A DNA stretch of 64,000 nt from Trichobilharzia szidati (taxonomy: Eukaryota; Platyhelminthes; Trematoda; Strigeidida; Schistosomatidae). The position numbers and the translations under genes are program-made. The notes under the pieces are model-generated. The model worked only from the letters and a program-made list of their open reading frames with translations. It was not told the DNA's origin and did not search any database. The stretch is taken from contig OX235279.1 of NCBI GenBank assembly GCA_944472155.2, positions 176,183,868 through 176,247,867 of the forward strand, in the 5' to 3' direction. Every line of letters begins with the position of its first letter. Positions within the stretch are counted from its first letter, which is position 1. Of the stretch, positions 3,783 through 59,490 are shown piece after piece.

Positions 3783-5160
3783 TATTAATATTGTTACTGC
3801 CTCGGGTTCCAAGTGGAACATTAAACCTCAACAAGAAATATCCAATTTCTTCTGTTTTCTGCTGTTCTCTTCACCTGCCTGACCTGACGACTGACCAGAA
3901 TCTCATCTCTGATCTCATCCTCACCACAAAATCTCCTCCATGTCACCTTTGCATCAACGACCCACTCATCGCTGCTCATTCATATTCCATTCGGGCGATG
4001 ATGGCCCGTATTGCGCGCAATGTCATTTAACGGCCTTCTCAACGTATACTCTATACATGCGCCTCCGCTTGTTGAGCGATCAGCTCTTAGTTGGTTCTTT
4101 CTCTGCCTGCCAGCCAGCCAGCAAGTCAGAGTTTGTTGCTGCTAATTCCTTCTGCTCACCCAGCCAGTCGGCCGGTTAACCATTTGATCCTCAGTGTTGA
4201 GCCAGCGAATGGTGTTAGCTGTTCATAAAAATCCGCAGTAGCCTGTTGAAAACCCTTTCATGAGATGTAGACCAAACTGCTGATCCATATGAAAGTACTG
4301 ACTGACTGACTTCACTGACATTTGTGTTGCTGGGGCGGAGTGCAGAATATTATCAAACTAGTTTCAGGTTGATGAAGGTTAATTCTGCCAGCCAGTTTGT
4401 TAGTTTTCGCCTTCAAGTCTTCGAATCTGTATGACATTAAACATAAATCATCCACGCGCGAAATCCAGACCTTCTGTAGTCCTTATTTTGGTCCAGTGTG
4501 TTTCAATCTTCTCACTACCCACTGACACAGTCTGGTGCATTATCCAGTCCAACATGATCACGAATATAATCGTTGGTGGTAACAGGCAGCCAGCCTTATC
4601 TTACTCCTGTATTCACTTCGAACGCCTCACTAAGATTCCCTTTGTGGACATCCGACACATGTCACTGTCGTATAGCTGTGGTTGAATGAGGTTGGCAAAG
4701 ACTTAGGCACTGCACACCATAGTGTTAAAGCAGTTTCCAAATTACTTCTCGGTCAACACTGTCTGTGGAAGGCCCTTTCGAAGTCGATGAAGTTGAAACG
4801 GAGATAGACTTGATTGCCATTCTATGCTCTGTTTTATTATGACGACTACAACTGCAATAAGATGAGCACATGATTTGCCTTTCCTCAATCCAACTTGTTA
4901 CAGGCTGACGGAGTTCTAGACCCAGTGAACCCTGTATTCGTTGCAGGAATGCAACGAATGATGCAACATATTATTTCACTTGGCGTCGATAAGATCATAA
5001 CTCCACGCCAGTTTTGGCAGAGACGTAAGTCATCCTTCTTTGGCAGCTTGACAAGGTAGCCTTTCTTCCAGTCGGTGGGTACCTTTCCTTGCTTCCAAAC
5101 CTTTTGCATTATTGGCCTGAGTATATCTGCAGCAGTCCCTGGATGTGTTTTCAATGCTTC
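3783..5160 (-). pseudogene. RTE-like non-LTR retrotransposon, RT and C-terminal part
   Basis: Minus strand. From 5154 downward the reading contains LPKKDDLRLCQNWRGVM (RT entry region), a KSCA..EQSIEWQSSL-type block (about 4860-4800) and palm-region remnants, ending at the 3' tail near 3783, where ..GTTCCACTTGGAACCC..AATATTAATAG recalls the usual short-repeat end. Frames are broken repeatedly. In RTE elements this polypeptide nicks target DNA and reverse transcribes element RNA; here only decayed sequence remains. The endonuclease part is missing. Confidence 0.75.
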
Positions 5161-8755: not shown

Positions 8756-9140
8756 GTGTAAGCGCAATATCGCTTGAAATTAAGTCACGCGTAGATAAAG
8801 GCTATCCCGTTCCAGAACAAACAAGAAGCCGGTCACTGTTTCTACGGTACTATTATTAAACAAATCAATAATTATGTATACAACAAACCTTAACGGTTTC
8901 ATGAGTACAAAGCACAACGCTTAACAGAAAGCAAGGTACCGCTATCAGAGCGGAATAACGTTAAGGCCAAAAGTGCGAACTAGCCGGAATCAGACATGAC
9001 GGTTCAGGTAAGCAGTCAGTAGAAGAATGAACCCAAGTAAAGCAGGGCGTAGAAACAGTGACCGACTTCTTGTTTGTTCTGGAATGGGATAGCCTTTATC
9101 TACGCGTGACTTCATTTCAAGAGATATTGCGCTAACAGTC
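8755..9140. repeat. Inverted repeat with about 90-bp arms
   Basis: Arms 8755-8845 and 9049-9140 are near-perfect reverse complements (GTCACGCGTAGATAAAGGCT.. against its complement), separated by about 200 bp. Both arms translate to the same peptide, SAISLE.KSRVDKGYP..PEQ. The element was not recognised. It could be a foldback transposon or an inverted dimer of an unknown repeat. Confidence 0.6.
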
Positions 9141-15127: not shown

Positions 15128-15246
15128 ATCGGTTACAGGATTTCATCATGAGCTGACACTGGTTAGAGAACCAATGGAAAACCTTGGAGTACTGGACAGC
15201 TGTTTCGTCCTAGTTTGGGACCCTTTGGCAGTACGCACCCACAGGC
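15128..15246 (-). mobile_element. SINE B, ribozyme-to-tail part only
   Basis: Minus strand copy of the SINE B tail (GAGCTGACACTGGTTAGAGA on the plus strand) plus the ribozyme; it ends a few bases beyond the ribozyme's 5' strand, with no tRNA-like head. Confidence 0.75.
15189..15234 (-). ncRNA. Hammerhead ribozyme in SINE B, box 1 mutated
   Basis: Minus strand: GTACTG/CAGTAC stem I, stem II GTCC/GGAC, GAAA, self-complementary ACAGCTGT stem III and cleavage C are all intact, but box 1 reads CCAAAGG instead of CTGAAGA, so it should be inactive. Confidence 0.65.
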
Positions 15247-15999: not shown

Positions 16000-17490
16000 T
16001 TTGTATAATTATGGATTAATGATGTAGTACTAACGAAATGGGTACGTGGTTCTGACGTATAAAAACAGTAACCAAATCTAATAATGCAGATAGGAATTTC
16101 AAAAAGTAAATATAACAAATAAACAGGAAGGTTGGACAAGAAAAGTAGTAGGATAATCATTATTGGTGGGACTGACTTTTCATGATGGCCACAGTAGGGA
16201 CAACAGTTGGACGTATTTCTTTTGGACACATAGAGTAGTAGGCTTGAGTTTTTGGATCTACAGTGCCTCACCTCTTCCTAGATGTCTTGATTTCACTCCC
16301 TTTGGTGTGTTGAATCGGGTCTTGTATGTGGCTTTGAAGGACTTTTGAAATGAGGCTGAATGTCCAGAATTTACCAGATATTCGCTTATCAAACTGTATA
16401 CCCCTTTATATTCTCCGTTTGCTAACCATGCTGGATAGTGTTCCCGCGCGCGTTTAACAAGCGGAAGCATGATATGGCCAATATGCTCGGCTCCACACGA
16501 GCAAGTGAACTTGTATATGCATGTTGAAGTGGCCCAATGCGACAGCTTGTCTTTCACGTACTGAGTGAGTAGTTTCTTGCAGGAGAACGGAACATATGGA
16601 TTGCCGTACCTTCTACGGTTTTAACAGTTTTGCCTCATACCCCTTTGTCAAGATTTCCGTGCAGTTGGCTTGTGGGTTAACTTGGTGTCCAAAGCAAATC
16701 AGGTATCCCACAAAAGAGCTGGAGGAGATATTTTCACTGCTTTGTAAAACCATGACAGTATATGTTCCATGATACGTTTGGACAGCGAACACTGAGTACA
16801 GCGGACATACCTAGCTCCATAGTAGAAGGGGAATTGATGATGCGTGCATACTGATGAAGCCAGTAGTAACAACTTATCCTTCATGGGCATACGAGTAACT
16901 GGTTTTGTAGAGAAAGTATGTTAGATTTTAGCTGAGAAGGTTTTCTTCAATCAAAGCGACAAGTGATTTCTAATTATTTCTTGAAACAAACTTTCATCTG
17001 ATTGTAGATTCAGACAGAGCATTTTGAAGGTAGAAAATTTCTGTGGTTTTAGAAGTGTAAGCTTCATGAATTTTGTGATGAGGCGTTCACGGTAGCCGTC
17101 TTCAGCGAGAATCTATTTTAGAGTGTTCAGTTCCTATTCCACGATGGCATCGCCACAAATGTTGAGGATTCTGTGGTTCACTGGACGCATCAGCCATAGG
17201 CAGGCATCCAGCTGTGGAAATTTGTCAGTTGTCCGTTCCGCGTTGGCTTTCTGAGGAGAGATCTTTTTAATGTCCCACTGTCACACCTTGTGAGTGATGT
17301 CTTTGGAATCGAACTCCTTCTCTAACGTGAAATTGAATGCGGGGTGGCAACAGTTAAAAAAACAACTACTGATAATTAACTGGGTTCTCTTCATTGAGAG
17401 AAATAATAAAATTATCATCCATGTATCTGTCGTAAAACCCATAGGTGTCATTAAACCTATAATAGACTCAATTTATCTTTATAAGTAAAA
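16000..17490 (-). pseudogene. PLE with RT catalytic motif and two GIY-YIG remnants
   Basis: Minus strand. RT palm motif FYDRYMDDNFIISLNEE at about 17440-17385, then a FPQLDACLWLMRPVNHRI-like block, LNTLK and a region down to KPVTRMPMKDKL (about 16900), followed by a damaged GIY-YIG (ARYVRCTQCSLSKRIMEH, about 16815-16750). A second GIY-YIG follows at 16557-16180: CSCGAEHIGHIMLPLVKRAREH, ATYKTRFNTPKGVK. The tandem domains suggest one copy inserted into or was joined to another. Multiple stops. Confidence 0.75.
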
Positions 17491-17494
17491 ACAC

Positions 17495-18262
17495 AGTTTT
17501 TTCGTTCAGCGAAGAAATTTCTTTTCAATGACTTCATTTTCAAGCTGTACAGTCGTATTTATATTACAGAAAATGTTATTAAGTGGCACTAAATAATTGC
17601 TCAGTCAATATATACATATATATATGTGATAAGAATAACGATAATTAAAATGTTATAAGGGGTAGAGTTGAAGTGGATAAATTACAAAATTATTAAAGAT
17701 TGTTCTATAAGTGAATTGAAATCAAAAATGTTTTAAAAATGTCAAGTGTTGTCTAAAAATTTTAAAAAATTAGGAGTACGATTACGATAAGAATGAAGAT
17801 GTGAATTGAAGTGGAAAGAATTCAAGTGGTAAAATAAAATAAAGTAGAAACTAGAAAGAACATTACTATGACCAAGGTAAAGAAAGGGGTTTGACAAAAC
17901 GTATCTGAACACATAATTTAGGTTTCTGTTCATGTATAGCTAAAGCTTCGGCTATGCATAAGTGAAGAAAACGTAAACTTTTGGATCGATTCGATTTTGC
18001 CATGTAGATAACTTTGAAAGATGAATCACGTGGGGCTTAACGACCTGACTCTAACAGGTGATCACAGATAGACGACTTCGCAGTTCTACGTTCGCCTTTC
18101 ATTAACCAGACTGGATAGTGTTCAGCTACACTTTTTCGGAGATTACGCTTACAACGTCCAATATAAACAGCTCCAAAAGAGCAGGTAAAAGAGTAAATAC
18201 ACATGGATGTGGACAAAAGTGGTAATCTATCCTTGACGCATTGTCTAATCATATTTCGGCTG
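17495..18262 (-). pseudogene. PLE GIY-YIG domain with complete 3' terminal region
   Basis: Minus strand. GIY-YIG: CIYSFTCSFGAVYIGRCKRN, then REH-like AEHYPVWLMKGERR (18200-18080), KSSICDHLLESGR, then LMHS..SYTRTET near 17930. Downstream to 17495 runs the 3' region with the core TACAGCTTGAAAATGAAGTC, ATTGAAAAGAAATTTCTTCG, CTGAAC (about 17565-17510). The same terminal sequence forms the palindrome at 23.8-24.3 kb. A frameshift follows the HLLESGR block. Confidence 0.75.
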
Positions 18263-18264
18263 GT

Positions 18265-18640
18265 AAAAACTAGTTGTAAGTCAGCTTAACAAATGCTAGG
18301 TAACTTTTGCTAATACGAATTTTCTTTTTTCCCTAATTACGTTATTCGTCGCCTATCCCACTAATACGTTTATTCACCTTATGACACTGATATTAACTTG
18401 AATCTTTTTCAATTTTAGCTGATTTCTACTCATTCCTGTCAATTCTATTACTTCACACAATTTATTATCAAGCTTTATGTACAAACATATATATATATAT
18501 ATATAGTGAACTGCGAAAAAATATTCTCCCTCGTTTTGTTCATCCCCTTCTTTCTAAACATCCAATTGTGACATTTCATTTTTATCCCTTAATTATGTGA
18601 TTCATTTCAGTATATCCTAAAATTGATTTTTATCGTCAGA
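18265..18640. other. Unassigned pyrimidine-rich stretch
   Basis: TTTTTTCCCTAATTAC.. and a (TA)n at 18486-18505. The composition resembles PLE 3' untranslated regions (compare 20530-20940), but no core was found. Confidence 0.35.
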
Positions 18641-21199: not shown

Positions 21200-22132
21200 A
21201 CCAATTATTTGATCACGATTCAGACTACAAGTCTTATTGTTTTTGAACAAAGCAAGAACTACAGTTTTAGCAGAATAAAATGGTACCATCTTTTATTTCG
21301 TTGCCTTCTCGTCAGCTGCTTACAGGCCAAAGACATTATTAAATGTATCTACAAAAACAATTTTAACATACTTGCACAGAGTTCATTTTAAACAAAAAAT
21401 CAATCGATCAATATATGCATACAGTAATAATATATACATATATATGTAATATTAAACACACTTCCGAACAATAATAATCATTTTATTTTTTTTATTTTGA
21501 TCATACACAATGGAAACTTTACAGCATTACGCATTCAGATGAAAGAGAGATGAAAATATCCAGTTACCAGGGTAAAGAAAGGCTGATAACTGCTTCTTTC
21601 CGAACGCACAAATCGGGTTTAGGCACTGGATGGAAATGGCTTCAGCAAACTGGAGGAGAATTGAGCTCTTTTGTCTACTGATAATTTTGAACGATCTCGC
21701 GAGGTCCATGTCATGACCGTTGTCAAGGAGATCGCTGGCGATGGCACTGTTTAAAGCATATGTTCCCTTTAGACATAAGCTTTTGGCACACGTTCAGAAA
21801 ATCGTAGATATGCCCTTCTTTCTGTCCTCCCAATGTAACTGCTCCCACAGATACATGTAAATTTGTATATACAATTGGAGGTAACATGAGAAGGATATCT
21901 ATCAATTTTTGATTGCACCAAAGAGTAAGTTGTTCGATAGACGGGGACGAGTTCAGCTGCAGGAAAGGCTCTGGCTAGTGACGTACTCAGCCTTCTGCTG
22001 ATAAACTCCTCAGGATTTTCTTGGAAAACGTCACACAGTTTCTCCTTTGTCAGGGATTTCGACAGAGTTTTGTAAAAGTTTTCACAGGCAACGAAATAAA
22101 AGTTGGTACTACTTTATTCTGCAAAAACTGTA
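21200..22132 (-). pseudogene. 5'-truncated PLE with hammerhead-bearing ends in inverted orientation
   Basis: Minus strand. The GIY-YIG region (about 22080-21520) reads YKFTCICGSSYIGRTERRAY (about 21855-21800), ERVPKA, then FSSSLL..FPS and an ending near 21515. Downstream on the same strand a hammerhead lies at 21269-21320. At the other end (22087-22132) the ribozyme's 3' half occurs on the plus strand, starting in the middle of stem II. The copy is therefore bounded by inverted terminal repeats. Stops and frameshifts disable the ORF. Confidence 0.75.
21269..21320 (-). ncRNA. Hammerhead ribozyme at a PLE terminus
   Basis: Minus strand, 52 nt: stem I AGCAG/CTGCT, box 1 CTGACGA, short stem II GAAGGCAAC (only the closing G-C is sure), GAA, stem III ATAAAA/TTTTAT around GATGGTACCA, then T as the cleavage base (between 21274 and 21273). 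All conserved core bases are present; the weak stem II is the doubt. Hammerheads are known at PLE termini in other animals. Confidence 0.75.
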
Positions 22133-22139
22133 GTTCTTG

Positions 22140-22980
22140 CTTTGTTCCCATAGACAAAATGACTGCAACCTTATAATTTTACCATGAACCAAATTTATGT
22201 AATTTAAATAATACTTATCCATGCCTGTACAACTGGTGTGTCCTACACAGGTGGGAAAAAATGTATTTTATTAAATTACTATTATTAAATATGCTTACTA
22301 ATCGTATATGTAATTTATCATATTGATGATGCCTGTAAACTGGCGTCCCTCATGTAAAAAATGAGAATATATTATTATTATTATTATTAAGGGGAATAGA
22401 TGTATGAAATTTCTTATTGTTTTCTTGAAAGAATCTTGGATTTAGGACATCCAAGCCGTACAACCGGCGTATTATTCTCCAATAAACTCATCAATTCCTA
22501 ATGCACAATGCTTGCAATTTCAAACCAAACCGTCGGGGGGATGCAGATTGTTACACACAATAAACGAAACACATGAATGACATAAGTTGTTCAGTCAGGC
22601 TTAGTTGCAGATAACTTTGCCTGCTAAACGTAGAGTTGCATTCATTCAGTTCATCATTAATGTCACTCTTCTATTTGCAGAACATTTCCTTTGGACACGA
22701 ACCTTTGTGTGACGGTTACATCCTGTTTGACCTCGAGTTACCAAATTAACTACAAGATTTTATGTATGACCTTTATGTTTTCCAGTCGAAAAAATTATTT
22801 TAAGCTAGAGGTTAATGTATTTTAATTTTATAGAAAAGTCTATTTCGAGCTGTGCTGATTTTTTTATATTAATTTAGCTTTCGGGACAAAACTATGTATA
22901 GTTCAGTTCGTTTTGGCATTTTCATGCTACTTTTCACTTTTAAAGTAGTATGTGCAAAGTTGTGTAATTTTTATAATTAG
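22140..22980. other. Unassigned stretch with an ATT repeat
   Basis: TGTCCTACACAGGTGGGA.., GCCTGTAAACTGGCGTCC and a (ATT)n run at 22372-22390 suggest the 3' end of an unidentified retroelement. The remainder (22400-22980) shows nothing clear. Confidence 0.35.
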
Positions 22981-22989
22981 AATGTACAG

Positions 22990-23345
22990 GTATTCGTTTT
23001 GTAAGGATGTTGAGTTGATTGGTTGGAGGATTTCATCATGAGGTGACATCAGTTAGAGAACCATTGGAAAACCAACTAGGGGTAGTGAACAGCTGTTTGG
23101 GGCTCTTCAGGAGTATGCATCCGCTAGGGTTTGAACCCAGGACCTTCTGGCTACAAGGCGAGCTAGCTCGTAGACCTTTAAGCAGCCACTCTCTGGGACC
23201 CAATCCAATGGCCAGCCCATGAATTCTAACTTCTGCCAATTCATGACATAGCGCGACCACTTCGCAGTGTCTTCTTCGATAAGTTACTGCCTCACCTTCA
23301 ATCTGCTGCACCCCACTAGACACGGCTTCCCACTGGAATCCCAGC
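22990..23345 (-). mobile_element. SINE B copy, ribozyme deleted
   Basis: Minus strand: leader (23345-23215), tRNA-like head with box B GGTTCAAACCC-type (23210-23125), then tail to about 22990. The ribozyme segment (23085-23120) is shortened to CTGTTTGGGGCTCTTCAGGA on the plus strand, so the GAAA box and half of stem II are gone. Confidence 0.75.
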
Positions 23346-26596: not shown

Positions 26597-27345
26597 GATA
26601 CCACATCTTTAATTGCTTATAATTCTTGTATTCATTCAGAACTCTTACGTAATCTGGCGTTCTCTACTTTGTTTCTATATGCATCCTGAGTAGAACTCAA
26701 TCATCAAACTATTCATATTATTACATAACTTCTTCTAACAACTGTTTGTGACAACTCATAACCTACGTTTGTTGCTACCCTAATTTTATTTACACCCAAT
26801 TTTCTTTACTGATTTTGTAATACGTAACTCCAATTACCAATCTTCACCTGTTTAGTTGAAATAACTATAACCAATTGTATTTTTGCTTGACAAACTTAAT
26901 GTACATATACATACAAAATAACCCATATGTATTTGCGCCTATTTTTTTTCCTTCACGTTCCCCAGTGGAACACTGGGCTTCAAGCTTGTGGCTTGAAGTT
27001 TCTGTAGCAGTGTTTATTTTACAGGATGGGGTTGCTAGCCTCATGCCCAACCTTTCCTCTTCACCAGCATTATTTCTGGCTTAGTGAGGTAAAGGAGTGC
27101 GTCGACCGGGGATCGAACCCCGGACCATGTCCATGGTCGGCGAGCGTCCTAACTGCTATACCACCGACGCAAAGAAGTGTGACGGCTGTGGATCGAACCC
27201 CAGACCGCATGATTAGTCGGCGAACATTCTACCGCTGTGCCAATGACGCATTTGCGCCTATACAGCTGAGAAAATGAATTCGCCGCCAAAAAGAGACTCT
27301 TCACTGAACTACGTGTTTTGTTTTCATTATGGATGCAGAATGAAC
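26597..27345 (+). mobile_element. PLE 3' terminal region interrupted by SINE A
   Basis: 26597-26942 matches the PLE 3' region at 29940-30235 (for example GTAATACGTAACTCCAATTA, CAATCTTCACCTG). The terminus resumes at 27250 with the core CTATACAGCTGAGAAAATGA, ATTCGCCGCC, AAAAAGAGACTCTTC. The 26943-27249 SINE lies between 12-bp duplicates ATTTGCGCCTAT. Confidence 0.75.
26943..27249 (-). mobile_element. SINE A with two tandem tRNA-like heads, target duplication
   Basis: Minus strand; 12-bp duplication ATTTGCGCCTAT at 26931-26942 and 27250-27261. Tail and body are complete. Two heads follow in tandem: one with box B GGGATCGAACCCC (27108-27170) and one with GTGGATCGAACCCC (about 27185-27248). Full-length insertion into a PLE terminus, so younger than that PLE. 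Confidence 0.85.
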
Positions 27346-28470
27346 ATACCCTGGTATTAGATGGTTGGAGGCAATCGACAGGAAGCCTTGGAACTAATTT
27401 TCATGCTAGTTGCCACTCATCAGCAAGGCGTATCTGCAACCTCGAAGGGACTTATGTCCATTCTGAGATTTGAACCCAGTGCTGCAGTCAGAGACGTTAC
27501 CACTGTGCTATTCAGGCTCACGATTGACCTCCTGTAAGAATGTATTGAATATCACCGAAAATACCCATTCAGTCATGAAGAAAATAAAAGACAGATTCAG
27601 AGAAGAAAATTTTCTTTATCGACGAAATCATCTTCAGAGGCTGTTCAGTTGTATTTATATTTACCAGAAATGTATAGTGGTCTGTTGTTGAGCAATAAGG
27701 GGCGACATAATTGATATAATTACTCAGAAGTGGCTTTAGAAGTGAAAATAAAAAGTTGTAAATTACGTGGTAATCAACGGGACAAAGATAGAAATTTGAT
27801 AAGGTTAAAATTGCTATTGAGTCAGAGTAAAGGTATTTGAGTGTCAATTTAACAAGTGTGAAGAGGGTGTGAAAATATACAAAAGGAGCATATGAGAGTG
27901 ATAATAGTGAATTAATTAATAAAGCAAAAGCAAACTAAAAGTAAGATTAAAAATTACAAAAAAGAAAAGAAAAAAATCAAAATTTTTTTAAAACAAGGAA
28001 CGATTAATGAGAAGGTAAAGACTAAGGTAGAATTAGAGACTGGACAAACTTTTTCTGTTTACAGAGTTCAGGGTTGTATTGATGAATTGCCAGAGCCTCC
28101 GCCATACACAAAAGCTGAAACCTGACGCCCTTTGTACCATTTGGCTTCACTTTGTAGACGTAATCTACAACTTTTATTTTATTTTACTTCTAAAGCCACT
28201 TCTGAGTAATTATATCAATTATGTCACTCCCTATTACTCAATAATAGACCACTATATATTTTTGTAAGTATAAATACGACTGTACAGCCTCTGAAGATGA
28301 TTTCGTCGATAAAGAAAATTTTCTTCTCTGAATTTGTCTTCTTTTTTCTTCATAATGTATTAGATATTTTTGATTGGACACAGTCTGCGCCGAAAATAGA
28401 ACTAGACACAGTACACCAGTTACTGACTAGTGTCCAATCAAAAAGAACATACGCTGGACAGACAGTTGAG
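27345..28470 (-). mobile_element. SINE C copy split by a PLE insertion
   Basis: SINE C on the minus strand has a tRNA-like part (box A TAGCTCAGTGG-type, box B GGTTCGAATCT-type; here 27520-27460 with some decay) and flanks (GGTTGGAGGCAATCGACAGG.., CTAGTGTCCAATCAAAA). The left part is 27345-27558 and the right part about 28365-28470, separated by the PLE. The joining sequence AATGTATT..ATAT occurs on both sides (about 27550-27563 and 28357-28371), consistent with a target duplication of about 14 bp. Confidence 0.6.
27560..28372 (-). pseudogene. 5'-truncated PLE with inverted terminal copies
   Basis: Minus strand. The centre holds only the last part of a GIY-YIG domain: VRFQLLCMAEALAIHQYN, PELCKQKKFVQS (about 28125-28035). 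The terminal region follows downstream to 27590. The same terminal sequence occurs on the plus strand at 28160-28372 (core CTGTACAGCCTCTGAAGATG, ATTTCGTCGATAAAG at about 28280-28320), giving inverted ends of about 200 bp. Inserted into SINE C. Confidence 0.7.
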
Positions 28471-29060: not shown

Positions 29061-29219
29061 ATGAAGTAATAAATTAGGAAATGTCACCCAATCAGGATCA
29101 GCATGCCTAACACAATTAGAATAATTTGAAACATTAACTAAGAAGATCGATCCATAGAAAACCTACTTGGAATGGTCAACTAACAAGCTTCTATAGGTGA
29201 GTACCCATTCGACAAAAGC

Positions 29220-30235
29220 GGAATTTAATTTAATCACTTGCCACCCGCATCCGACGCATCTGTAGTCCCAACGTTCTGGAAACAGTACTAGATATTCTAA
29301 GAGGAAAATTCATCCAAAATGGATACCCAATAAGATTCATTGACAAAAATATCAAACCAAGAATTCGGAGAAACGAAACTTTAATTGCACCAAAAAAGAA
29401 ACTCTACATGAACTTGGATTTCAAGGGAGATTTAGCAAGCGATATTCTCAAGAGAAGGATTACATCATCTCTGAGAAGAACATTCTTTGCAGCAACGCTA
29501 AGAATAGTGTTCTCCGGTCGCCCACTGATCTGCAGAAGCTTCAAGGACAAGATCCCGCATCTGACCACTTCTATGTGCATATATCAGCTCACCTGTGGCT
29601 GTGGAGCCAGCCAGGTACATCGGTCGTTCGACGCGCACCCTGTCCAAGAGGATTCAAGGACACTATCCAGCATGGTTGCGAAAAGGCAAAAGTGGTGCAA
29701 TAAGGAGTGCGATAGCTGGACACCTGGTTAACACTGATCATTCCATCTCAACAAACGCCTCCTTCAAAGTAATCTACAGAGTCAAGAACAACCTATCAAA
29801 GGCAATACGGTTTCGCCTTCTTTGTATCGCTGAAGCTCTGGCCATTCGCACAGAAAAACCAGAGCTGTGCATACAAAAGAGGATTACTCAACCACTTCAA
29901 CTATCATGGTAACAACTTTGTTAATTTTTGATGACTTAATTTTGTTTCTTTGCCTGTTCTTTAATTGCTTTGAATTCTTCTATTCATATAGAACCCTCAC
30001 GTAATTTCGTATTATCTACTTTGTTCCTATGTGCATCCTGAGTAAAATTCACTCATCAAACTATTCATATAAGTACAGAACTTCTTTTAACAACTCTTTG
30101 TGACAACTCATCACCTTTGTTACTACCTTAATTTCATTAACACCTAATTTTCTTGACTGATTTTGTAATACGTAACTCCAATTACCAATCTTCACCTGTT
30201 TCGTTAAAATAACCATAACCAATTGTATTTTTTCA
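29220..30235 (+). pseudogene. PLE GIY-YIG domain, well preserved, with 3' region
   Basis: Reads FIQNGYPIRFIDKNIKP, KLYMNLDFKGDLASDILKRR, a region to IPHLTTSMCIYQLTCGCGAS (29550-29610), then after one frameshift ARYIGRSTRTLSKRIQGH (29613-29665), YPAWLRKG, AGHLVNTDHS, FKVIYRVKNNLSKAIRFRLL and ELCIQKRITQPLQLSW to a stop at 29910-29912. A Cys-rich CGCG motif precedes the GIY motif, as is usual in PLEs. The 3' region runs to 30235. Only one frameshift separates the linker from the nuclease domain, so this is one of the youngest copies here. Confidence 0.85.
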
Positions 30236-30830
30236 GAACAAAATATTTAGAGCGAACAATTGTTTTCAATAAATTCTTCTTTAGGCTCTACAATTATAAA
30301 TCCATTAATTTAAGCATACAATAGCCAGTAAAGGCAAATCAGAATCATATCAGAAAGTGTATTGTGGAACAAGTATAACATGGGATGGAACAATAGTCAG
30401 ACAGTTTTTTAATATGCATGGTCAATGAGAACATGGGACAAAATAAAACGTATATGTTCAGAAGAATGCATTAAGGAAGAAATGCATAAACTGAAACTCA
30501 CACTACAAGAAAATGGATATCCACAGAGCTTCCTAAAAAAGTATATGTCAATACCTGCAGACAAGGTAAAGGTGGATACCGTAGAAAAGAAACCTTTGTA
30601 TTTTAAGTTATGTTACAAAGGGGAAATTGCAGCTGACATTCTAAAATGTCGACTTAATAGAGCAGTAGATAGAACATTTTCTGCAGCTAAACTTCTCAAC
30701 TAAACCAGTACTCACACAGCAAGTCAAGGATAAATTACCAAAGATGGCCTCATCAATGTGTATCTATGAATTCAACTGCTCATGTAGAGCTAGTTACATT
30801 GGCCGTACTCAGAGGGCTTTATCCATGCTC
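30236..30830 (+). pseudogene. PLE terminal repeat followed by linker and partial GIY-YIG
   Basis: 30236-30440 is the terminal sequence also found at 11752-11990. An open stretch (30425-30703) follows, with LKLTLQENGYPQSFLKKYMS, KPLYFKLCYKGEIAADILKC and RAVDRTFSAAKL, the PLE linker before the nuclease. After a frameshift comes QVKDKLPKMASSMCIYEFNC and SYIGRTQRALSM (30790-30828), where the copy ends at the SINE fragment. A pLTR directly 5' of the linker is consistent with a head-to-tail PLE arrangement. Confidence 0.7.
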
Positions 30831-30999
30831 GCAGCAGTGTTTATTTTACAGGATGTGGTTGCTAGCCTCATGCCCAACCTTTCCTCTTCACCAGCATTAT
30901 TTCTGGCTTAGCGAGGTAAAGGAGTGCGTCGGTCGGGGATCGAACCCCGGACCATGTGCGTGGTCGGCGAGCGTCCTAACCGCTCTACCACCGACGTAC
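30831..30999 (-). mobile_element. SINE A 5' part (head and body), 3' tail missing
   Basis: Minus strand head with box B GGGGATCGAACCCCG (30938-30952) and box A complement CCGCTCTACCACCG (30980-30994), plus body to GCAGTGTTTATTTTACAGGA. The tail past GTAGCAGTG is absent and no target duplication is evident, so it was probably placed by recombination. Confidence 0.7.
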
Positions 31000-33883: not shown

Positions 33884-33919
33884 AATTTAAAACCAACGAC
33901 CAATTTACTCCATAATATT

Positions 33920-34066
33920 CAAGTATTGGTTTGTAGGGATTTGGTTGATTGGTTACAGGATTTCATCATGAGCTGACATTGGTTAGAGAACCATTGGAAA
34001 ACCTGCAGGAAGTACTGGACAGCTGTTTCGTCCTGGTTCGGGACTCTTCAGCAGTACGCACCCATA
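33920..34066 (-). mobile_element. SINE B tail plus intact hammerhead, head missing
   Basis: Minus strand. Tail TCAAGTATTGGTTTGTAGGG.. (plus strand, from 33920) through GAGCTGACATTGGTTAGAGA to the ribozyme; homology ends at about 34066, nine bases past the ribozyme's 5' strand. A 5'-truncated retrotransposition product is likely. Confidence 0.75.
34012..34057 (-). ncRNA. Hammerhead ribozyme, fully consensus core
   Basis: Minus strand, 46 nt in order: stem I GTACTG; box 1 CTGAAGA; stem II GTCC, loop CGAACCA, GGAC; GAA; self-complementary stem III ACAGCTGT; cleavage C (34018); stem I CAGTAC. Every conserved position of a hammerhead is met. Stem III has no loop, so activity would be best in a dimer, as for SM-alpha and newt satellite hammerheads. 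Confidence 0.85.
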
Positions 34067-43944: not shown

Positions 43945-44176
43945 GGTCCGTCGGTGGCATAGCGGTTAGGACACTCGCCGACCATGCACATGGTCCGGGG
44001 TTCGATCCTCGGCCGACGCACTCCTTTACCTCGCAAAGCCAGAAATAATGCTGGTAAAGAGGAAAGGTTGGGCATGAGGCTAGCAACTCTATCCTGTAAA
44101 AATTAAGCACTGCTATAGAAACTTCAAGCCACTAGCTTGAGGCCTTATGTTCCACTGGGGAACGTGAAGGAAATAA
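43945..44176 (+). mobile_element. SINE A, near full length
   Basis: Box A TGGCATAGCGG, box B GGTTCGATCCTC, body CTCGCAAAGCCAGAAATAAT.., tail TTATGTTCCACTGGGGAACG then GTGAAGGAAATAAAAAAAAA. Good copy. Confidence 0.8.
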
Positions 44177-44194
44177 AAAAAAACAGATGTGCTC

Positions 44195-46575: not shown

Positions 46576-46689
46576 TGGAAACTGACAACAAAACTCAGAG
46601 GTTACTTACTGTCAGCTAGTGTATATGTAGAAATTGGGCACTGCAGGAAAGTGTAATTCCATATCGAATAAGTTGATGATAATTGTTGG

Positions 46690-47260
46690 TATTAGATGGT
46701 TGGAGGCAATCGGCCACAGGAAGCCTTGGACCTAGTTGGCCCTCACCAGTCAGCAAGGCGTATCTGCAACCCTGAAGGATCTGATGTCCCTTCTGAGATT
46801 CGAACCCGCGTCACCCAGTGCTGCAGTCAGAGACGTTACCACTGAGCTATTCAGGCTCGTGACTGACCTCCTGTCGGACTATATTGGATATTTTTGACTG
46901 CACACTAGTCAGTGACTAGTGTAATGTGTCTAGTCCTATCTTCGGTGCAGACTGAATTCTACCAGTCAGGTTGTCTGACTGCAGCACTGGGTGACGCGGG
47001 TTCGAATCTCAGAAGGGACATCAGATCCTTCAGGGTTGCAGATACGCCTTGCTGACTGGTGAGGGCCAACTAGGTCCAAGGCTTCCTGCCGATTGCCTCC
47101 AACTATCTAATACCAACAACTCACAGTGCACCGTAATGGCGAGCCACCTAGCATGGTGGCTACATTGCAAACATGACTGATAGAATTCAGTCTGCGCCGA
47201 AGATAGGACTAGACACATTACACTAGTTACTGACTAGTGTGCAATCAAAAATAAGTTGAT
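46690..47260. mobile_element. SINE C large inverted pair
   Basis: 46690-46860 reads TATTAGATGGTTGGAGGCAA.. to ..GATTCGAACCCGCGTCACCC (box B complement) and GGTAACGTCTC..; the reverse complement occurs at about 46980-47130. The tRNA-like box A (complement of GAGCTATTCAGGC at 46844) is present only in the left copy. The central spacer carries the GACTAGTGTAATGTGTCTAG flank, which is also inverted at 47205-47245. Confidence 0.7.
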
Positions 47261-48800: not shown

Positions 48801-49284
48801 TATATATATGTATATATGTATTAAGATACATATCTCTAAACTGTTAAATGGAATGTTTGCTTTTTACACTGTTAAAAGTTAAAAATTAAAGTTATTATAA
48901 TACAATACTAATGTGTATCCTAGTTTTTTTTTATAGCTGTGAAGAGTAAAACGGAAAAAAAACACACAAACAAAACAGGCAATAGTGTATTAAAAGGTGA
49001 GTATTCATTCACATCGATTACATGCATATAGGCTTGATGATTTCAAACACCAGATTTGAAATACCCTCATGGAATTTATATATATATATTTTTGAAAAGC
49101 AGGGAAAGAAGTCCTCATTCTACTTAACTAAACTATTCAAACAAGTGATCAATATATTATTGAAGTTTTGCCGCGGCAAGTAGCTCTCATACTTTTGTTT
49201 TCTCGCTATCTGAGTGGAAATGAGGAAAGAAGACCTTATGATTCTGTCCTCTAATTACACTGACTCCAATGAATATGAGACTAA
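48801..49284. other. Unassigned AT-rich stretch
   Basis: Short (TA)n runs near 48800 and 49077. No coding or repeat relation recognised. Confidence 0.35.
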
Positions 49285-49385
49285 GGATTTTCAAGTATTG
49301 GTTTTGTAGGGATTTTGTTTGATTGCATGGAGGATTTCATCATTAGCTGACATCAGTTAGAGAACCACTGGAAAACAGGCTGGGA

Positions 49386-49431
49386 GTACTGGACAGCTGT
49401 TTCGCCCTAGTTTGGGACTCTTCAGCAGTAC
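49386..49431 (-). ncRNA. Hammerhead ribozyme in SINE B, core intact
   Basis: Minus strand: GTACTG, CTGAAGA, stem II GTCC (loop CAAACTA) GGGC with one G-U pair, GAA, ACAGCTGT, C, CAGTAC. All core residues present; cleavage predicted between 49392 and 49391. Confidence 0.82.
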
Positions 49432-49791
49432 GCGCCCACCGGGATTCGGACCCAGGACCTTCTGGTTACAAGGCGAGCTCGTAGACCATTGAGCCACTAG
49501 GATCCGATCCAATGGTCAGCCCATGAATTCTAACTTCTTCAAATTCACGACATAGCGCGACCATTTTGCAATGTCTTCTTCGATGAGTTACTGTCTCATC
49601 TTTAACCTGCTGTACCCTACTGGTCACGGCTTCCCACTAGAACCCCAGGTTAACTGCCTCAATAGGGCCAGTCACTAGTGAGCATCAGATTAATTTTCAA
49701 GTATTGGTTCGGTAGGGATTTTGTTTAATTGTATGGAGGATTTCATCATGAGCTGACATCAGTTAGAGAACCACTGGAAAACCTGCGGGGA

Positions 49792-49820
49792 GTACTGGAC
49801 AGCCGTTTCGTCCTAGTTTG
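49792..49820 (-). ncRNA. Hammerhead 3' half (second tandem unit)
   Basis: Minus strand AAACTA, GGAC, GAAACGGCTGTC, CAGTAC: stem II 3' strand, GAAA and the cleavage site are present; box 1 was lost at the inversion breakpoint. Confidence 0.7.
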
Positions 49821-49869
49821 GTTCTCTAACTGATGTCAGCTCATGATGAAGTCCTCCATGCAATCAGAC

Positions 49870-50770
49870 TAAGGATTGTTAAGTTCTGCCATTCGACGCA
49901 TTTTTTTCTTCTTTTTGAAATGAGAAACATCACATTAACTTTAAGGGTAGATAGACAGTGTTTATATTGAGCGGATTTTTTAAATTAAGACTGGATTTCA
50001 AGTTTCAGCCTCATCATATCCGAATAGAAAAACAACTAGATAGGCAAACTGAAGAGTATGAAGCGTTGTGTATGAAATATAATCTACACTCCAAATTAAT
50101 TTTTTTTTTAAATAATAAAAATGTGATTATTCTTAAGTATGCGCGTCAGTGTTTCAATGGTAATATGTTCACTAGTTTTTACGCGGGATATGGCGGTTTG
50201 GTTCACGTCCGATGCATACCTTAACCGTACCTAGTTCACTTAGTAAACAGCGGTCATCCCGGAAAAGAGAGAAGGCTAGGCGTGAGGTTAACAACACCAC
50301 TACCACATAGGAGGAGATTGTATGTCTGCTAAAATTTTGAATATTAAGGTCGTTTCTACAGGTAAAGTGTCAACAGCGTAATATTAAAATCTCCTAGTAT
50401 GACAACTACTGAGGCAAGCCGAGCTTTTAAAAGGAACATTTCTGGGGACTCGGTTGAGTAAAGTTCACAGTCGAGTCTCTGCTGATGTCATAACGAATTC
50501 CTGGGAGGAAGTCGTCAGCTTGCTACAGTCAACATAAAACCATCAGAAAATGTATTGTTTACTAATAATCTTTCGAGCACAATTTATTGCGCATATTTCT
50601 ATTACTCATTGATGTAGGCACCAGCGTTACTCAAACAAGCCACCTGGGCTTCATCATGTCTTCTTTACGATTAGTTAAGATATTCAAATCAGTGATCATG
50701 GTGTCTTTCATTTAACATAAAGGGAAACAAAAGTTGTAACTTAAGATCTAGGTTTTGAGCTGGTTAGCAC
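49870..50770. other. Mostly unassigned; decayed SINE and PLE pieces
   Basis: An 88-codon plus-strand open frame (49958-50224) has a charged stretch (IEKQLDRQTEEYEALCMKYN) after an acceptor-like TTTCAAGTTTCAG, but an internal T/A run argues against a real exon. 50222-50320 resembles a SINE A body. 50555-50600 carries a minus-strand GCGCAA/TTGTGC hairpin followed by TCGAAAG, a PLE terminus of the 38975 type. Confidence 0.4.
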
Positions 50771-50775
50771 CAATT

Positions 50776-51013
50776 TTTGTATTCCTCCACATTCCCTAGT
50801 GGAACATAGAGGGCTTCAAGCTAGAGGCTTGAAGTTTCTGTAGCAGTGTTTACTTTTACAGGATGAGGTTGCTAGCCTCATGACCAACCTTTCCCCTTTA
50901 CCAGCTTTATTTCTGGTTTAGCGAGGTAAAGGAGTGCGTCGGTGGCCGGGGATCGAACCCCGGACCATGTGCATGGTCGGTGAGAATCCTAACCACTGTG
51001 CCACCGACGCACC
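50776..51013 (-). mobile_element. SINE A, full length
   Basis: Minus strand tail ATTCCCTAGTGGAACATAGA.., body, box B complement GGGGATCGAACCCCGG (50947) and box A complement CCACTGTGCCACCG. ACCAATT (about 50769-50775 and 51011-51017) flanks it as a target duplication of 7-9 bp. Confidence 0.82.
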
Positions 51014-53430: not shown

Positions 53431-53449
53431 TAGTGATGCTATTCCTATT

Positions 53450-54545
53450 GATTATTATTATTGTTTCCTTTAGTTCCTAGAGGAGCATAGGGCTTCAGCC
53501 GTCCGTCTTCATTGCATTCGGTTCTCTGCTAGAGTCTTCGCTTGGCTCCAAGTCTGCCCACACGCTTTCATCTCTTCTTCACATGACCCTTAGACGACCA
53601 ACTCGCCGCTTCCCTTTCGGGTTCCACTAGAGTGATGGCCTGGCGTGTGATATCACTTGATGGTTTCCTTAGTGTATGGCCAATCCATCTCCACTTCTTC
53701 CTGCCTATTTGTTTCACTATCGATTCCTGGTTGGTTCGCTCCCAGAGATCTCTGTTGCTGATCTTTTCTGGACGGCCATCTGATCTTGAGTATAGAGCAA
53801 AGACAACTAGCTGTTGATGAAGGTCTGTAGTTTGTTTGAGATGCTCTTTATGACGCGCAGTGCAAGTCTCTGATCCGTATGGTAAGTAGCACTGACTTCA
53901 CATTGGAGTTGAAAATCCAGATATAATTTTTGATGCTGAGTGCTGTTGACCTCCACACAGACTTGAGAGTAATGAAAGCTTGTCTTGCTTTCCCGATTCT
54001 TGCTTTGATATCGTCGTCAGTTCCGTCCGCCTGTAGTTGAAACGATGCTTCCCAGGTTGGTAGGTGAAAGAGGTTGTTTCTTTCAGGTTCCTCCCATTTA
54101 TGCTGGCTGATTGTTGTCTGTTGTTGTTGCTGTTGGTGGTGTTGGCCAGGAATCTTCATCACCTCTGTTTTCTCTATGTTCACCTGAAGTCCTATCTTTG
54201 ATGCTTCTTCTGCTAACTTGTTGCTTTTCGCTTGCATATCTTCCAGTTTGTGGGAAATCAGACATTTACATGTCATCGGCGAAGTCCAGATCCTCCAAGT
54301 TGTTTTTGTGTGAGTCCATTTTATGCCTATTTCCTCATCGCCCGCTTTTTGTCGCATTATCCAGTCTACTGCAATCAGGAAAATCATTGGCGATAGTAGG
54401 CAGCCAGCTTGTCTTACTCCTGTCCTCACTTCGAAGGATTCCGTGAGTTTCCCGTTGTGGATTACTTGGCATGCAGCATTGTCGTACAGTTGTTGTATGA
54501 GATGTATAATTATCGGTGGCAACCCGTAGTAGCGAAGTTGATTGT
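53450..54545 (-). pseudogene. RTE-like LINE, RT to 3' end, long open frame
   Basis: Minus strand; 224 codons are open (54522-53848): PPIIIHLIQQLYDNAACQVI, GKLTESFEVRTGVRQAGCLL, SPMIFLIAVDWIMRQKAGDE, then MTCKCLISHKLEDMQAKSNK (catalytic ADD replaced), LQVNIEKTEVMKIPGQHHQ, IGKARQAFITLKSVWRSTAL. The C-terminus IRRRKW..-type and the 3' end GAACTAAAGGAAACAATAAT follow to 53452. It is one of the least damaged copies but lacks the RT active site and the endonuclease. Confidence 0.8.
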
Positions 54546-54573
54546 CTTGGCTGAAATGTTTGGCTTCTGTCGA

Positions 54574-54831
54574 TATGTCAGTTCCTATTACAGACGCGTC
54601 GACAGTGTATGAGGATTAACATGAAGTAATATGGTAGATGATAACTAGCAGTGGAGTCCAAGATGTGCATTTTTCGTCTTATTCGAGGATGGCAGCTACA
54701 TCCGACTGATGGACCTCAAATAGGATGAAGTGAGCATCCTGGATTCCACTGATAATCACCATCCATCCAATTACTTTATGTTAATCCTCAAACACTGTCG
54801 ACGCGTCTGTTATAGCAGCTGACATGTCCAA
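54574..54831. ncRNA. Palindromic pair of SM-alpha-type hammerhead relics
   Basis: The left arm 54574-54693 is an imperfect reverse complement of the right arm 54697-54831 (both contain ACAGACGCGTCGACAGTGT, GAGGATTAACAT, or complement). Each carries a decayed hammerhead: minus, AAGACGAAAAATGCACATC, TTGGACTCCACTG (GAAA kept, box 1 lost); plus, CTGATGGACCTCAAATAGGA, TGAAGTGAGCATCC, TGGATTCCACTG (box 1 CTGATGG, GAAG). Confidence 0.75.
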
Positions 54832-54939
54832 CTGGTCAACGGAAAAATCAAGATTGACTCAAACAAATAACATTATTAAATTTAGTATTACGTTTTCATA
54901 ATTATTTCATAGAAGGACTTCGAAATCTCAAAATATTGA

Positions 54940-55020
54940 TTATTTTAACAAAGAATATTCTTTTCGACAGCTTCATCATCAGGTTCTACAGTTATATATA
55001 TGCATAATACTGACAAGAGG
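54940..55020 (-). mobile_element. PLE terminal core
   Basis: Minus strand AACTGTAGAACCTGATGATG, AAGCTGTCGAAAAGAATATT, CTTTG (about 54995-54948): standard core. Confidence 0.55.
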
Positions 55021-55625
55021 AGCGTTAGTGATAACACTAGTGGGTTTTACGAAGAGAGTAACATCGAATCATTTAGGTCAGAATTCCAAAAGTTATTTGC
55101 AATTAGATTGTTAGTAGATTATAGTCCAAAATATATGTGTCTGTATGTTGTAATATGTAAAATTGTAATACTAAATGGAACGCCAGTATCACAAAGTAAA
55201 TGATTATGAATGACAACGAATGTATAGTAATAAATTCTCGTGAGCTATGTCGTGTTCAAAATCCCATAACTCCTACAACTCAGTACTCTGAGTTCAACGT
55301 ACCAAACACTATGTTAAAATTGCATATTGACCTATTTTATTAGAGATTATAGGTTGTACGCTGCTAATGACAGCCAACGAACTAAAATGGATCCATGTTA
55401 TTCTTCACCGAGATTTGTTCTTCCTCCCCTACTCAAATTTATAAAAGGTAGTTCTTGTATACAATTCTTGAAGAATTGTCTCCCTACTGAATCAGTCATG
55501 TTGCTGAATCACTTATCAAGACTGAATGCAGTGAAGCAAGATCAGACAGAACTAAAAACCCAGTGTCCGGAATCAGAAACAAAGCGTCTGCTTCATTCAT
55601 CTAAACAAATTCCATTGCTGAACGA
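55021..55625. other. Unassigned stretch with two open frames
   Basis: Plus-strand open frames of 67 codons (55000-55203) and 100 codons (55327-55629). The second has a protein-like composition (PRFVLPPLLKFIKGSSCIQF, LLNHLSRLNAVKQDQTELK), but no domain or splice context is recognised, and it ends at a PLE terminus. Confidence 0.3.
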
Positions 55626-56060
55626 TTAGTTTCGAGTTCCATTATGGATAAGATTTTATTTTGATAAATCACACAGTGTTATATGTTAATATTAACTGAT
55701 GACCACGTTTCGAGCACATTTCATTACTGCGTCGGTGGTGCAGCGGTTAGGACTGTCGCCGACCATGCACATGGTCCCAGGTTCGATTCCCCGCCAACGC
55801 ATACCTGATATCTGTGGTCGGCCTGCTAAATTGGGCTACCGATATAACATGCTGAAAATTTCTTACTTATACCAAAATACTGTGTGGAATCAAGCTATAA
55901 TAATAATAACAAGTTACTCACATAACTTTTTTCCTTCATCTATATACATGAAACGTCATCAGTTAATATTACCGCATAACACATTATGTGATTTATCAAA
56001 ATGAAATCTTATCTATAGTGGAGTTATACTCTACCACCGTGCCCAAGTTTGAAACTTATA
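55626..56060. mobile_element. PLE terminal pieces in inverted orientation around SINE A2
   Basis: Left: TGATAAATCACACAGTGTTA, ATATTAACTGATGACCACGT, TTCGAGCACATTTC (55660-55725). Right: CATCAGTTAATATTACCGCA, TGTGATTTATCAAAATGAAA (55957-56005) is the inverse. The SINE at 55729-55912 lies between. Confidence 0.6.
55729..55912 (+). mobile_element. SINE A2 copy
   Basis: Box A TGGTGCAGCGG, box B GGTTCGATTCC, body CCTGATATCTGTGGTCGGCC.., GTGTGGAATCAAGCTATAAT then (AAT)n. Good copy. Confidence 0.8.
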
Positions 56061-58096: not shown

Positions 58097-58649
58097 TCAT
58101 GCATTTATTCCCCTTGATGAATTTGAATAAAGCAAGAACAACAACAGTGGCGGTTTGTGCAGAATAATATATGGTACCATCATTGCTGATTTCTTTGGCT
58201 TCTCATCAGCTCAACTGCTTACAGCCTAAATAAATATATGTATGAGGTTTATGTACACAAAAGTTTTAACATACTTGCAAATTTTTTTCATGATGTCAGT
58301 TGACAGAAGGTTCCGCAATTAGGTAACAGTGCTCAGAAAATTGCGCTTATATAGTTTTTACACAGGCAGTTCAAGTTTAAATAAAGTTTAGTCACTCAGC
58401 ATCTTACGCATCTCTCGTCTTTATTACGTAACTCCTTTACCATTGTATGCATACATTTGTTTTGTTTAAACTTGAACTGAGCACTGTTCAGTAATTGCGG
58501 AAGTTTCTGTCAACTGACATCATGAAAAAAATTTGCAAGTATGTTAAAACTTTTGTGTACATAAACCTCATAATTTATTTAGGCTGTAAGCAGTTGAGCT
58601 GATGAGAAGCCAACGAAATAAGTAATGATGGTATCATATTATTCCGTAC
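58097..58649. mobile_element. Foldback PLE terminal element with two hammerhead cores
   Basis: Arms 58162-58321 and 58491-58643 are reverse complements of about 160 bp (for example CAACTGACATCATG against its complement), with further short complementary pieces in the loop. Each arm has a hammerhead core of the 21269-21320 type. The sequence GCAAGAAC..ACAG, TTTGTGCAGAATAATA at the left edge matches 21250-21275. Confidence 0.75.
58588..58645 (+). ncRNA. Hammerhead-like core in PLE foldback (right arm)
   Basis: CTGATGA (58599-58605), GAAGCCAAC, GAAA (58615-58618), then stem III ATAA..ATGAT, loop, ATCAT..TTAT. Stem I is weak. The left arm (58159-58221, minus) has CTGATGA and GAAA but GAAGCCAAA in stem II and a decayed stem III. 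Confidence 0.6.
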
Positions 58650-58665
58650 AAACCAACAGGGATTG

Positions 58666-58711
58666 CGGAACAGCTGTTTCGTCCTTCTAGTTCAGGACTC
58701 GTCGGCAGTAC
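58666..58711 (-). ncRNA. Hammerhead in SINE B, near consensus
   Basis: Minus strand: GTACTG, CCGACGA (U4 to C), stem II GTCC..GGAC with a longer loop, GAAACAGCTGT, T, then CCGC instead of CAGTAC. Stem I and one core base are lost. Confidence 0.55.
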
Positions 58712-58977
58712 GCACCCACCACATGGGTTCGAACCCAGGACCTTCCGATTACAAGACAAGTTAGCTCGTATACCATTCAGCCACTGGGACCCAATTCAAT
58801 GGCCAACCCATGAATTCTAACTTCTGCCAATTCGTGATTTAGTGTGACCACTAACCAATGTCATCGGCGGGAACTCTATCCTCACTGTCGACTAGATGGA
58901 CCCCACTGGTCACGACTTCTCACTAGAACTCACTCCAGGCAACTTCGTCGTTTAGCCAGTCACCAGTGAGCATTGAA

Positions 58978-59490
58978 TAGGGTCCCAGTGGCTGAATGGT
59001 ATATGAGCTTGCCTTGTAACCGGCAGGTTCTGGGTTCATTACCCAATCAGTGCGTACTGCCGATGATTCCTTAACCTCGCCTAGCCAGTAGTAAGCCCAG
59101 TAAGGAGGGGGGGAGAGGCATGTAGCTAGAAGTTTTAACTGCACTCTAGTTCGCAACTAGTGTAATGTGTTTAGTCGTTTGTTTGGTGCCGAATGAATTC
59201 TGTCAGTAAAGTTTGCAATGTGGCGACCATACCTGGTGGATCACTAAAGAGGTGCACTGTGAATTTTTGATATTAGATGGTTGGAGACAATCGGTAGGAA
59301 GCCTTGGACCTAGGTCTCTTGTTTGTTGGTGTATTTGTAACCATGAAGGAAATCATATCCCTTCTCAGATTCGAATTCGTGTCACTCTGTGCTGAGATCT
59401 CATCCTGTAAAGATAACTTCATCGCTACTGAAACTTTAATGCTTGAACTTGGAGCCATCTGTTCTTGTTAGAAGACAAAGAAATGAAAAA
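58978..59490 (+). mobile_element. Chimeric SINE (SINE B head, SINE A body) split by SINE C
   Basis: The SINE B tRNA-like head GGTCCCAGTGGCTGAATGGT..GGTTCTGGGTTCATTACCC runs into GTACTGCCGATGATTCC (start of the ribozyme) and then switches to the SINE A body (CTTAACCTCGCCTAGCCAG, AAGGAGGG..). The body is interrupted at about 59140 by SINE C (to about 59400) and resumes with CTCATCCTGTAAAGATAA, CTACTGAAACTT.. Confidence 0.65.
59140..59402. mobile_element. SINE C copy
   Basis: CTAGTGTAATGTGTTTAGTC, GAATTCTGTCAGTAAAGTTT, TTGATATTAGATGGTTGGAG, GCCTTGGACCTAGG and TTCTCAGATTCGAATTCGTG (box B complement) in order; the tRNA-like box A side is missing. Confidence 0.6.

Follow-up and report, generated by a model that had tools for sequence, protein, structure and literature searches.

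Among the closest known relatives of the element reported here are animal retrozymes that lack long terminal repeats (metazoan non-LTR retrozymes). Penelope-like elements (PLEs) have been named as strong candidates for mobilizing them (Cervera and de la Pena 2020, PMC7229834); strong or likely candidacy is also attributed to PLEs in passages of two other papers (PMC7761336, PMC11722881), and long interspersed nuclear elements (LINEs) are put forward as well in PMC7229834 and PMC11722881. SMalpha of Schistosoma mansoni, an element of this kind, is given as 335 bp long (PMC8490949). How PLEs insert has been described for a purified protein, which cleaves both target strands and extends each of them, has two adjacent internal start sites that flank a 'tail' of 30–40 bp and lie most often in an AC-rich stem loop, and prefers ATT (Frangieh 2024, PMC11167929). 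In A. vaga, PLEs are described with inverted terminal repeats placed head-to-head, target-site duplications (TSDs) of 8–10 bp and, optionally, a tail of 31 bp (Arkhipova 2013, PMC3846280). In the literature searched, the link between PLEs and retrozymes is conjectured only. Here we analyse a 64,000-nucleotide stretch of contig OX235279.1 of Trichobilharzia szidati (hereafter the window, numbered from its first letter) and a small hammerhead-bearing element at 49279–49877 within it. The host is a schistosome (Schistosomatidae, the same family as Schistosoma) that infects birds. From the arrangement of many insertions in its genome, we propose, with a probability of about 70%, that PLE machinery mobilizes the T. 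szidati element from circular or multimeric RNA.

The locus had been described in an earlier note as a tandem, tRNA-headed element with a hammerhead in each unit. That observation was largely real, with corrections, and the locus is best explained as a single insertion of a tRNA-headed hammerhead retrozyme of T. szidati that is non-autonomous. The direct repeat of 1.3 units with a period of 406 bp is present as described (49287–49421 versus 49693–49827, 91% identity), and it lies on the minus strand, which is also the RNA sense. The first hammerhead is intact, and its stem III is the self-complementary palindrome ACAGCUGU that the note had pointed out, whereas the second keeps only its 3′ half and gives no Rfam match. 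RNA polymerase III box letters are present, their assignment as A and B boxes following the usual box consensus. The head, which had been called tRNA-Thr-like, does have tRNA-like letters, but threonine has no support beyond the letters of the anticodon loop; the tRNA model scored 21.4 bits on an array unit, below the cut-off of 29 bits, and we therefore use the name 'tRNA-like' only. An inverted arm (49820–49866) and an 11-bp TSD, GACTAAGGATT, had been overlooked. The element spans 49290–49866 between the two TSD copies (49279–49289 and 49867–49877), so that the inserted piece is 577 bp long. Numbered on a 403-bp consensus unit that is weighted towards the largest arrays, the order in RNA sense is an inverted piece (unit positions 25–72), the truncated ribozyme, the rest of that unit, the tRNA-like head with the intact ribozyme and, at the 3′ end, CTTGAA(AA). 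The proposed kinship with self-processing satellites and retrozymes paralleling SMalpha was correct as to family (a type I hammerhead, units about 400 bp long, forms ranging from dimers up to arrays of dozens of units, and TSDs), but not as to the locus as a processing unit. We rejected a free-standing processing dimer at this place on the ground that the second ribozyme is incomplete, and excision of a 406-nt circle from the window copy itself is not expected, because only one complete ribozyme is present. Better sources of circles are the arrays and dimers such as that in L033, described below.

The main sample of dispersed copies comprised 42 insertions, namely 40 scored places matching a diverged window copy (22981–23344), the window locus and L020, in a genome of 1.11 Gb in 907 contigs; first-look candidate copies numbered 6593 and 12247, both unverified counts. 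Smaller extra copies within the same loci were left out of the count, as were L062–L073, whose flanks do not all extend far enough to show both arms. Twenty-eight of the 42 insertions consisted of two arms in opposite orientation, with the 5′ ends meeting mid-way and the 3′ ends outermost. One arm ended at a position that we call site A (104.8 ± 2.5, 38 ends) and the other at site B (70.9 ± 5.3, 27 ends) in 24 of these pairs. The other four joined A to another position (L038, L047, L050 and L057); in L050, blast breaks up the second arm, the outer part of which ends at 58 and so falls within the range of B. No A+A or B+B pair was seen among the 28 pairs, and 24 A+B pairs out of 24 have a binomial p of 1e-7 if the two choices are independent and equal. 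At A the arms typically finish in CCAATACTTGAAAA; at B the last letters are variable (CCTCCAT, GCAAT, AAACAA). An automatic search found direct flank repeats of at least 8 bp in 15 of the 24 A+B pairs and in 22 of 79 element groups overall; when right flanks were re-dealt at random, repeats of at least 8 bp appeared in 1.4% and of at least 10 bp in 0.5%. The 16 TSDs, comprising those 15 and that of L038, are 80% AT, compared with 61% for the window; those of L024 and L038 lie 15–16 bases off the junction and may be due to chance. Hairpin self-priming of one cDNA, which has been proposed for PLEs with palindromic junctions (PMC3846280), was dropped as an explanation, since the junctions vary and the two outer ends differ systematically.

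As a positive control we examined a resident PLE with a reverse transcriptase and a GIY-YIG end (reference L078), the one PLE family compared. Its copies end either at an outer site, TGTATGAAA, or 18–30 nt before it at an inner site, TTGTTCAAA; nine ends were outer (one being the reference itself), seven were inner and one lay at 58, with four internal fragments not counted as ends. In L079 an inverted arm of 819 nt ending at the inner site is joined to a direct arm of 1880 nt ending at the outer site, L080 is alike, and the PLE in L056 shows the junction only. A truncated PLE in the window also carries a head-to-head inverted piece, and the 83 bases between its two arms do not align to the reference. 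The retrozyme scar shares two start sites, head-to-head arms, TSDs and an AT-rich target with PLE insertion as seen here and as published, and therefore matches it in most features; the element works like a PLE passenger. Two closer ties were tried and rejected. Homology between the unit's tail and the PLE start region came to nothing beyond the short end letters T-GAAA(A) and CAAA(A), and a hammerhead in the PLE terminal repeat came to core letters only, with no Rfam match and a fold no better than shuffles. Separately, the window holds an inverted pair of pieces of PLE terminal repeats (58152–58336 and 58477–58654, 90% identity, with hammerhead-like core letters at 58599) adjoining the old retrozyme copy at 58650–59070, and other PLE fragments at 29139–29964 (+), 30440–30794 (+) and 16483–18285 (−). 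In L042, no more than 15 bases separate the end of a relative of the fragment at 29139–29964 from a retrozyme insertion of the head-to-head kind.

The arms also bear on the form of the template RNA. Fifty-seven of the 65 arms ending at A or B (5 other arms were left out) cross the ribozyme cut site, 21 are longer than one unit and the longest measures 569 nt. Their 5′ ends do not pile up at the cut, where 1 lies no more than 5 nt away and 1.6 would be expected. A pile-up in the ribozyme or at the tRNA-like 3′ end, which had seemed likely in the first few copies, was considered and set aside. A linear self-cleaved monomer can be set aside as the template because its copies would stop at the cut. 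Arms that cross the cut and exceed one unit point instead to a circle or an uncleaved multimer. One variant of the PLE proposal, the odds of which overlap with those of the whole, holds that the same machinery copies an uncleaved linear multimer, the ribozyme being a passenger or acting at another stage. We regard this variant as a tangible though minority possibility. The crossing arms agree with it, and ribozyme mutants of the purified PLE are reported still to insert, the authors taking unprocessed RNA to be the dominant substrate (PMC11167929). On the other side, published animal retrozymes are known to produce circular RNA in abundance. Of 13 long B arms, 7 stop at 85–110, adjoining site A, and the long arms are shorter for B than for A (p 0.03). 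These stops fit one lap of a circle; this is suggestive only, and long arms were favoured by the query. For the circular form the predicted fold has an energy of −121.6 kcal/mol (−108.9 ± 5.9 for 100 shuffles). Both start sites lie within the longest mostly unpaired stretch of that fold, at 54–104 (partly paired at about 80–92). The A+C content is 77% at 58–104 and 51% for the whole unit.

We also considered whether the element is a conventional tRNA-derived short interspersed nuclear element (SINE) moved by a LINE, its inverted pieces arising by twin priming and its tandem form later by unequal exchange. The tRNA-like head with its polymerase III box letters, the ordinary length of the TSDs and the many single-arm copies all suit this explanation, and twin priming is known for LINE-1. 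Twin priming, however, puts the inverted end anywhere upstream, whereas the outer ends here lie at two fixed, different positions in 24 of 28 pairs, the other four still having A, and 21 of 65 arms exceed one unit. As a negative control we used one LINE family resident in the genome, with 12 copies fetched of 40 scored. All 12 copies lie in a single orientation and terminate in AAT repeats at a single 3′ end, and none of the 12 has an adjacent head-to-head inverted partner; the retrozyme lacks the AAT tail of this LINE and has two 3′ ends instead of a single one. Two inverted pieces near LINE copies are not head-to-head partners, namely a 64%-identical piece 160 bp upstream of L088 and a 55-bp piece (78%) just beyond the 3′ end of the window LINE. 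On this evidence we consider movement as a LINE-driven SINE unlikely. In an observation of its own, 8 of the 12 LINE copies (L084–L095) begin their match near reference position 1363–1365, which suggests a short derivative of that LINE.

Most of the window element's best genome matches are tandem arrays. In the fetched stretches the spacing is mostly 403 or 399–402 bp; two pieces of C639 hold 25 and 20 sites, and the other main stretches hold 9–24. Counted by contig, 45 sites at about 400-bp spacing lie on one 17.9-kb contig. We cut 158 units from ten stretches at eight places. Units match their own array consensus at a mean of 99.2–99.7% (lowest 97.0%), and array consensuses agree mutually at 98.3–100%. 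The strict ribozyme pattern is intact in 152 of the 158 units, the array hammerhead scores 54.1 bits (RF00163, gathering threshold 34 bits), and exactly one Sau3A site (GATC) is found per unit in 156 of 158. The earlier note had looked to further tandem copies and to hammerhead dimers about 400 bp apart for support; tandem copies do exist across the genome, and L033 holds a two-ribozyme dimer with hammerheads 405 bp apart. The fetched right edge of the C7 array falls exactly at site A. One edge of the 11-unit C6 array (L015) lies at about site A (109), and the other bears an inverted piece that ends at unit position 293, not at B, with no TSD visible by eye.

A satellite of Trichobilharzia ocellata, ToSau3A (AF442689), is listed in a review table at 396 bp, 10,000 copies and 1.5% of the genome (PMC10968006). 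The T. szidati arrays are probably this satellite, already described as DNA. They resemble its description in unit length (mostly 399–403 bp) and in host genus, and the single GATC in nearly every unit would suit a Sau3A monomer; the likeness is to that description and not to the letters of AF442689, and the table passage mentions neither ribozyme nor mobility. That the scattered copies are array debris, in which pieces of DNA or extrachromosomal circles inserted through fold-back or through breakage and repair without an RNA step, is very improbable, since DNA debris would break anywhere whereas the 3′ ends are fixed at A and B, the 5′ ends are scattered and TSDs are present, and the C7 edge lies exactly at site A, even though the arrays are long and homogeneous and L015 has an inverted piece at its edge. 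We also entertain, with some doubt, the idea that the arrays arose when Penelope-type reverse transcription ran round a circle of RNA produced by the ribozyme, with two primers giving the head-to-head scar and many laps giving an array in one step, so that a satellite would be born from circular RNA.

Several observations weigh against mobilization by PLE machinery. Twin priming by LINEs can also yield inverted pieces. As to ascertainment, 40 of the 42 insertions were found with a query requiring one long arm that includes site A. The 14 insertions that are not arm pairs comprise 10 with a single A arm, 3 with a single B arm and 1 with neither, and flank repeats of 8 bp are lacking in 9 A+B pairs out of 24. 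Twelve of 40 places, with short flanks, served as a second sample and yielded one A+B pair, three insertions whose second arm runs off the stretch, one A+other pair and seven insertions with only an A arm, of which two likewise run off the stretch. Among the fetched PLE loci, 6 of 8 have a single arm and no inverted partner in the stretch examined. The PLE tail here measures 18–30 nt, compared with an A–B spacing of about 34 in the element, the start sites of the unit have no sequence homology to those of the one PLE family examined, and no cognate PLE was found. Finally, the start site of the purified PLE is reported not to differ between top and bottom strands (PMC11167929), and the in vitro data therefore do not predict pairing that is strictly A+B.

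On this proposal, insertion would proceed as follows. Transcription of tandem units, perhaps driven by the internal polymerase III boxes, would be followed by hammerhead trimming of the RNA to units of about 400 nt that, by analogy with published animal retrozymes, may be circularized. A PLE reverse transcriptase/endonuclease would then bind the RNA at the open A+C-rich stretch at about 58–105, just downstream of the ribozyme. As read from the scars, an AT-rich target is cut on both strands about 8–13 bp apart and each end primes cDNA inside the unit, one at A (about 105) and the other at B (about 71), steps that we would assign to the PLE enzyme. The template was uncut at the ribozyme, as the arms imply, and may have been a circle. 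The scars also show the two cDNAs joined head-to-head, leaving the site duplication. Some insertions may carry many units and grade into long arrays, as the two array edges at or near site A suggest.

Besides the intact hammerhead of the main locus, Rfam recognizes three in the window, all in dispersed copies or fragments of the same element (Table 1). Other repeats were noted in passing. A second dispersed hammerhead-bearing family occurs at 27350–27550 (−), with a weak Rfam match at 27385–27429 (24.7 bits), and in L043 (146–237, with 37.7 bits at 162–206), L032, L053 and L016; it is arranged head-to-head in L019 at 4386–4669 (4386–4505 and 4511–4669) and, with 83 bases between the pieces, in the window at 46687–46891 and 46974–47115. 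A separate, frequent repeat with tRNA-like letters lies at 26900–27170 (weak tRNA match at 27098–27170, 23.2 bits) and also at 3301–3533, 43949–44178, 50764–51011 and 30833–30996. A short inverted pair at 8757–8846 and 9048–9137 (94% identity, spacer of about 200 bp) could be a DNA element resembling miniature inverted-repeat transposable elements.

Table 1. Retrozyme copies and control elements in the window, in order of position
Feature	Position	Strand	Basis or detail
Dispersed copy, one visible arm, site-A end; hammerhead 2394–2439	2303–2725	−	Rfam match to the hammerhead
Copy fragment; hammerhead 15189–15234, core damaged (CCAAAGGG)	15137–15242	−	
5′-truncated PLE: GIY-YIG end, terminal repeat with hammerhead-like core letters at about 21315	21230–22164	−	Head-to-head inverted terminal piece 22086–22164
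Dispersed copy, 79% to consensus, site-A end, one visible arm	22981–23344	−	
Short copy (hammerhead and tail), site-A end; hammerhead 34012–34057	33913–34062	−	
Left TSD copy GACTAAGGATT	49279–49289	.	Sequence and automatic TSD search
Arm A: unit positions 374–403, 1–403, 1–105 (1.3 units); 3′ end CTTGAA(AA) at site A	49290–49827	−	Blast match 49287–49827, 94.5% to 403-bp consensus
Intact type I hammerhead, predicted cut GTC^CAGTAC between 49392 and 49391	49386–49431	−	Rfam RF00163, 50.9 bits, E 2.7e-10
tRNA-like head	49433–49503	−	B box 49442–49452 GGTCCGAATCC, A box 49486–49496 TGGCTCAATGG, anticodon loop CTTGTAA
Second hammerhead, 5′-truncated, 3′ half only, at fold-back junction	49792–49827	−	Sequence; no Rfam match
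Arm B: inverted, head-to-head, unit positions 25–72, 3′ end outermost (site B)	49820–49866	+	Blast 25–78, a few bases into the TSD
Right TSD copy GACTAAGGATT	49867–49877	.	Sequence and automatic TSD search
Resident LINE: reverse transcriptase domain, AAT-repeat tail	53440–55900	−	Upstream limit set by hand
Old diverged copy (74%), head-to-head with inverted piece 58968–59070; outer ends 19 and 380, neither A nor B	58650–59070	−	

The scar of the scattered copies points to what moves ribozyme repeats in animals. It can be read base by base in many copies within one genome, with a PLE and a LINE of the same genome as controls, and it offers a simple test that could be applied to SMalpha and to the retrozymes of newts, mussels and corals. 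If PLE machinery does mobilize the T. szidati element, this would suggest a reason for the placement of a ribozyme upstream of the start sites in PLEs and retrozymes alike. RNA-mediated spread would then also be linked to ToSau3A, a satellite included in a review of targets for parasite detection, if, as we think, the arrays belong to it.

Among the papers searched, most subscription papers lying outside the scope, none joined Trichobilharzia with the hammerhead. By the features testable here (hammerhead, tandem units and TSD), the element is a metazoan non-LTR retrozyme; it shows the canonical type I hammerhead, the short tandem repeats (150–450 bp, from dimers to large multimers) and the TSDs of more than 4 bp that mark the group. 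Two features of the element were not seen in the description of this group in PMC7229834, namely the two-site head-to-head scar and the tRNA-like head bearing polymerase III box letters. Like SMalpha, it belongs to a member of the Schistosomatidae, is SINE-like, carries a type I hammerhead and forms satellite-like repeats. The earlier note had asked whether it might be plain SMalpha; with a unit of 399–406 bp as against 335 bp the two are set apart by length, the comparison being one of length and not of letters; according to the note, the ribozyme arms and the leader differ as well. With PLEs the element has in common two adjacent internal start sites for reverse transcription about 30–40 nt apart, extension of both strands, head-to-head ends, an AT-rich target and a hammerhead upstream of the start sites. 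It differs from them in being a 403-bp unit with a tRNA-like head, whose start stretch is predicted to be open rather than a stem loop. The mode of insertion appears to be new, whereas the kind of element, an animal non-LTR retrozyme like SMalpha, was already known.
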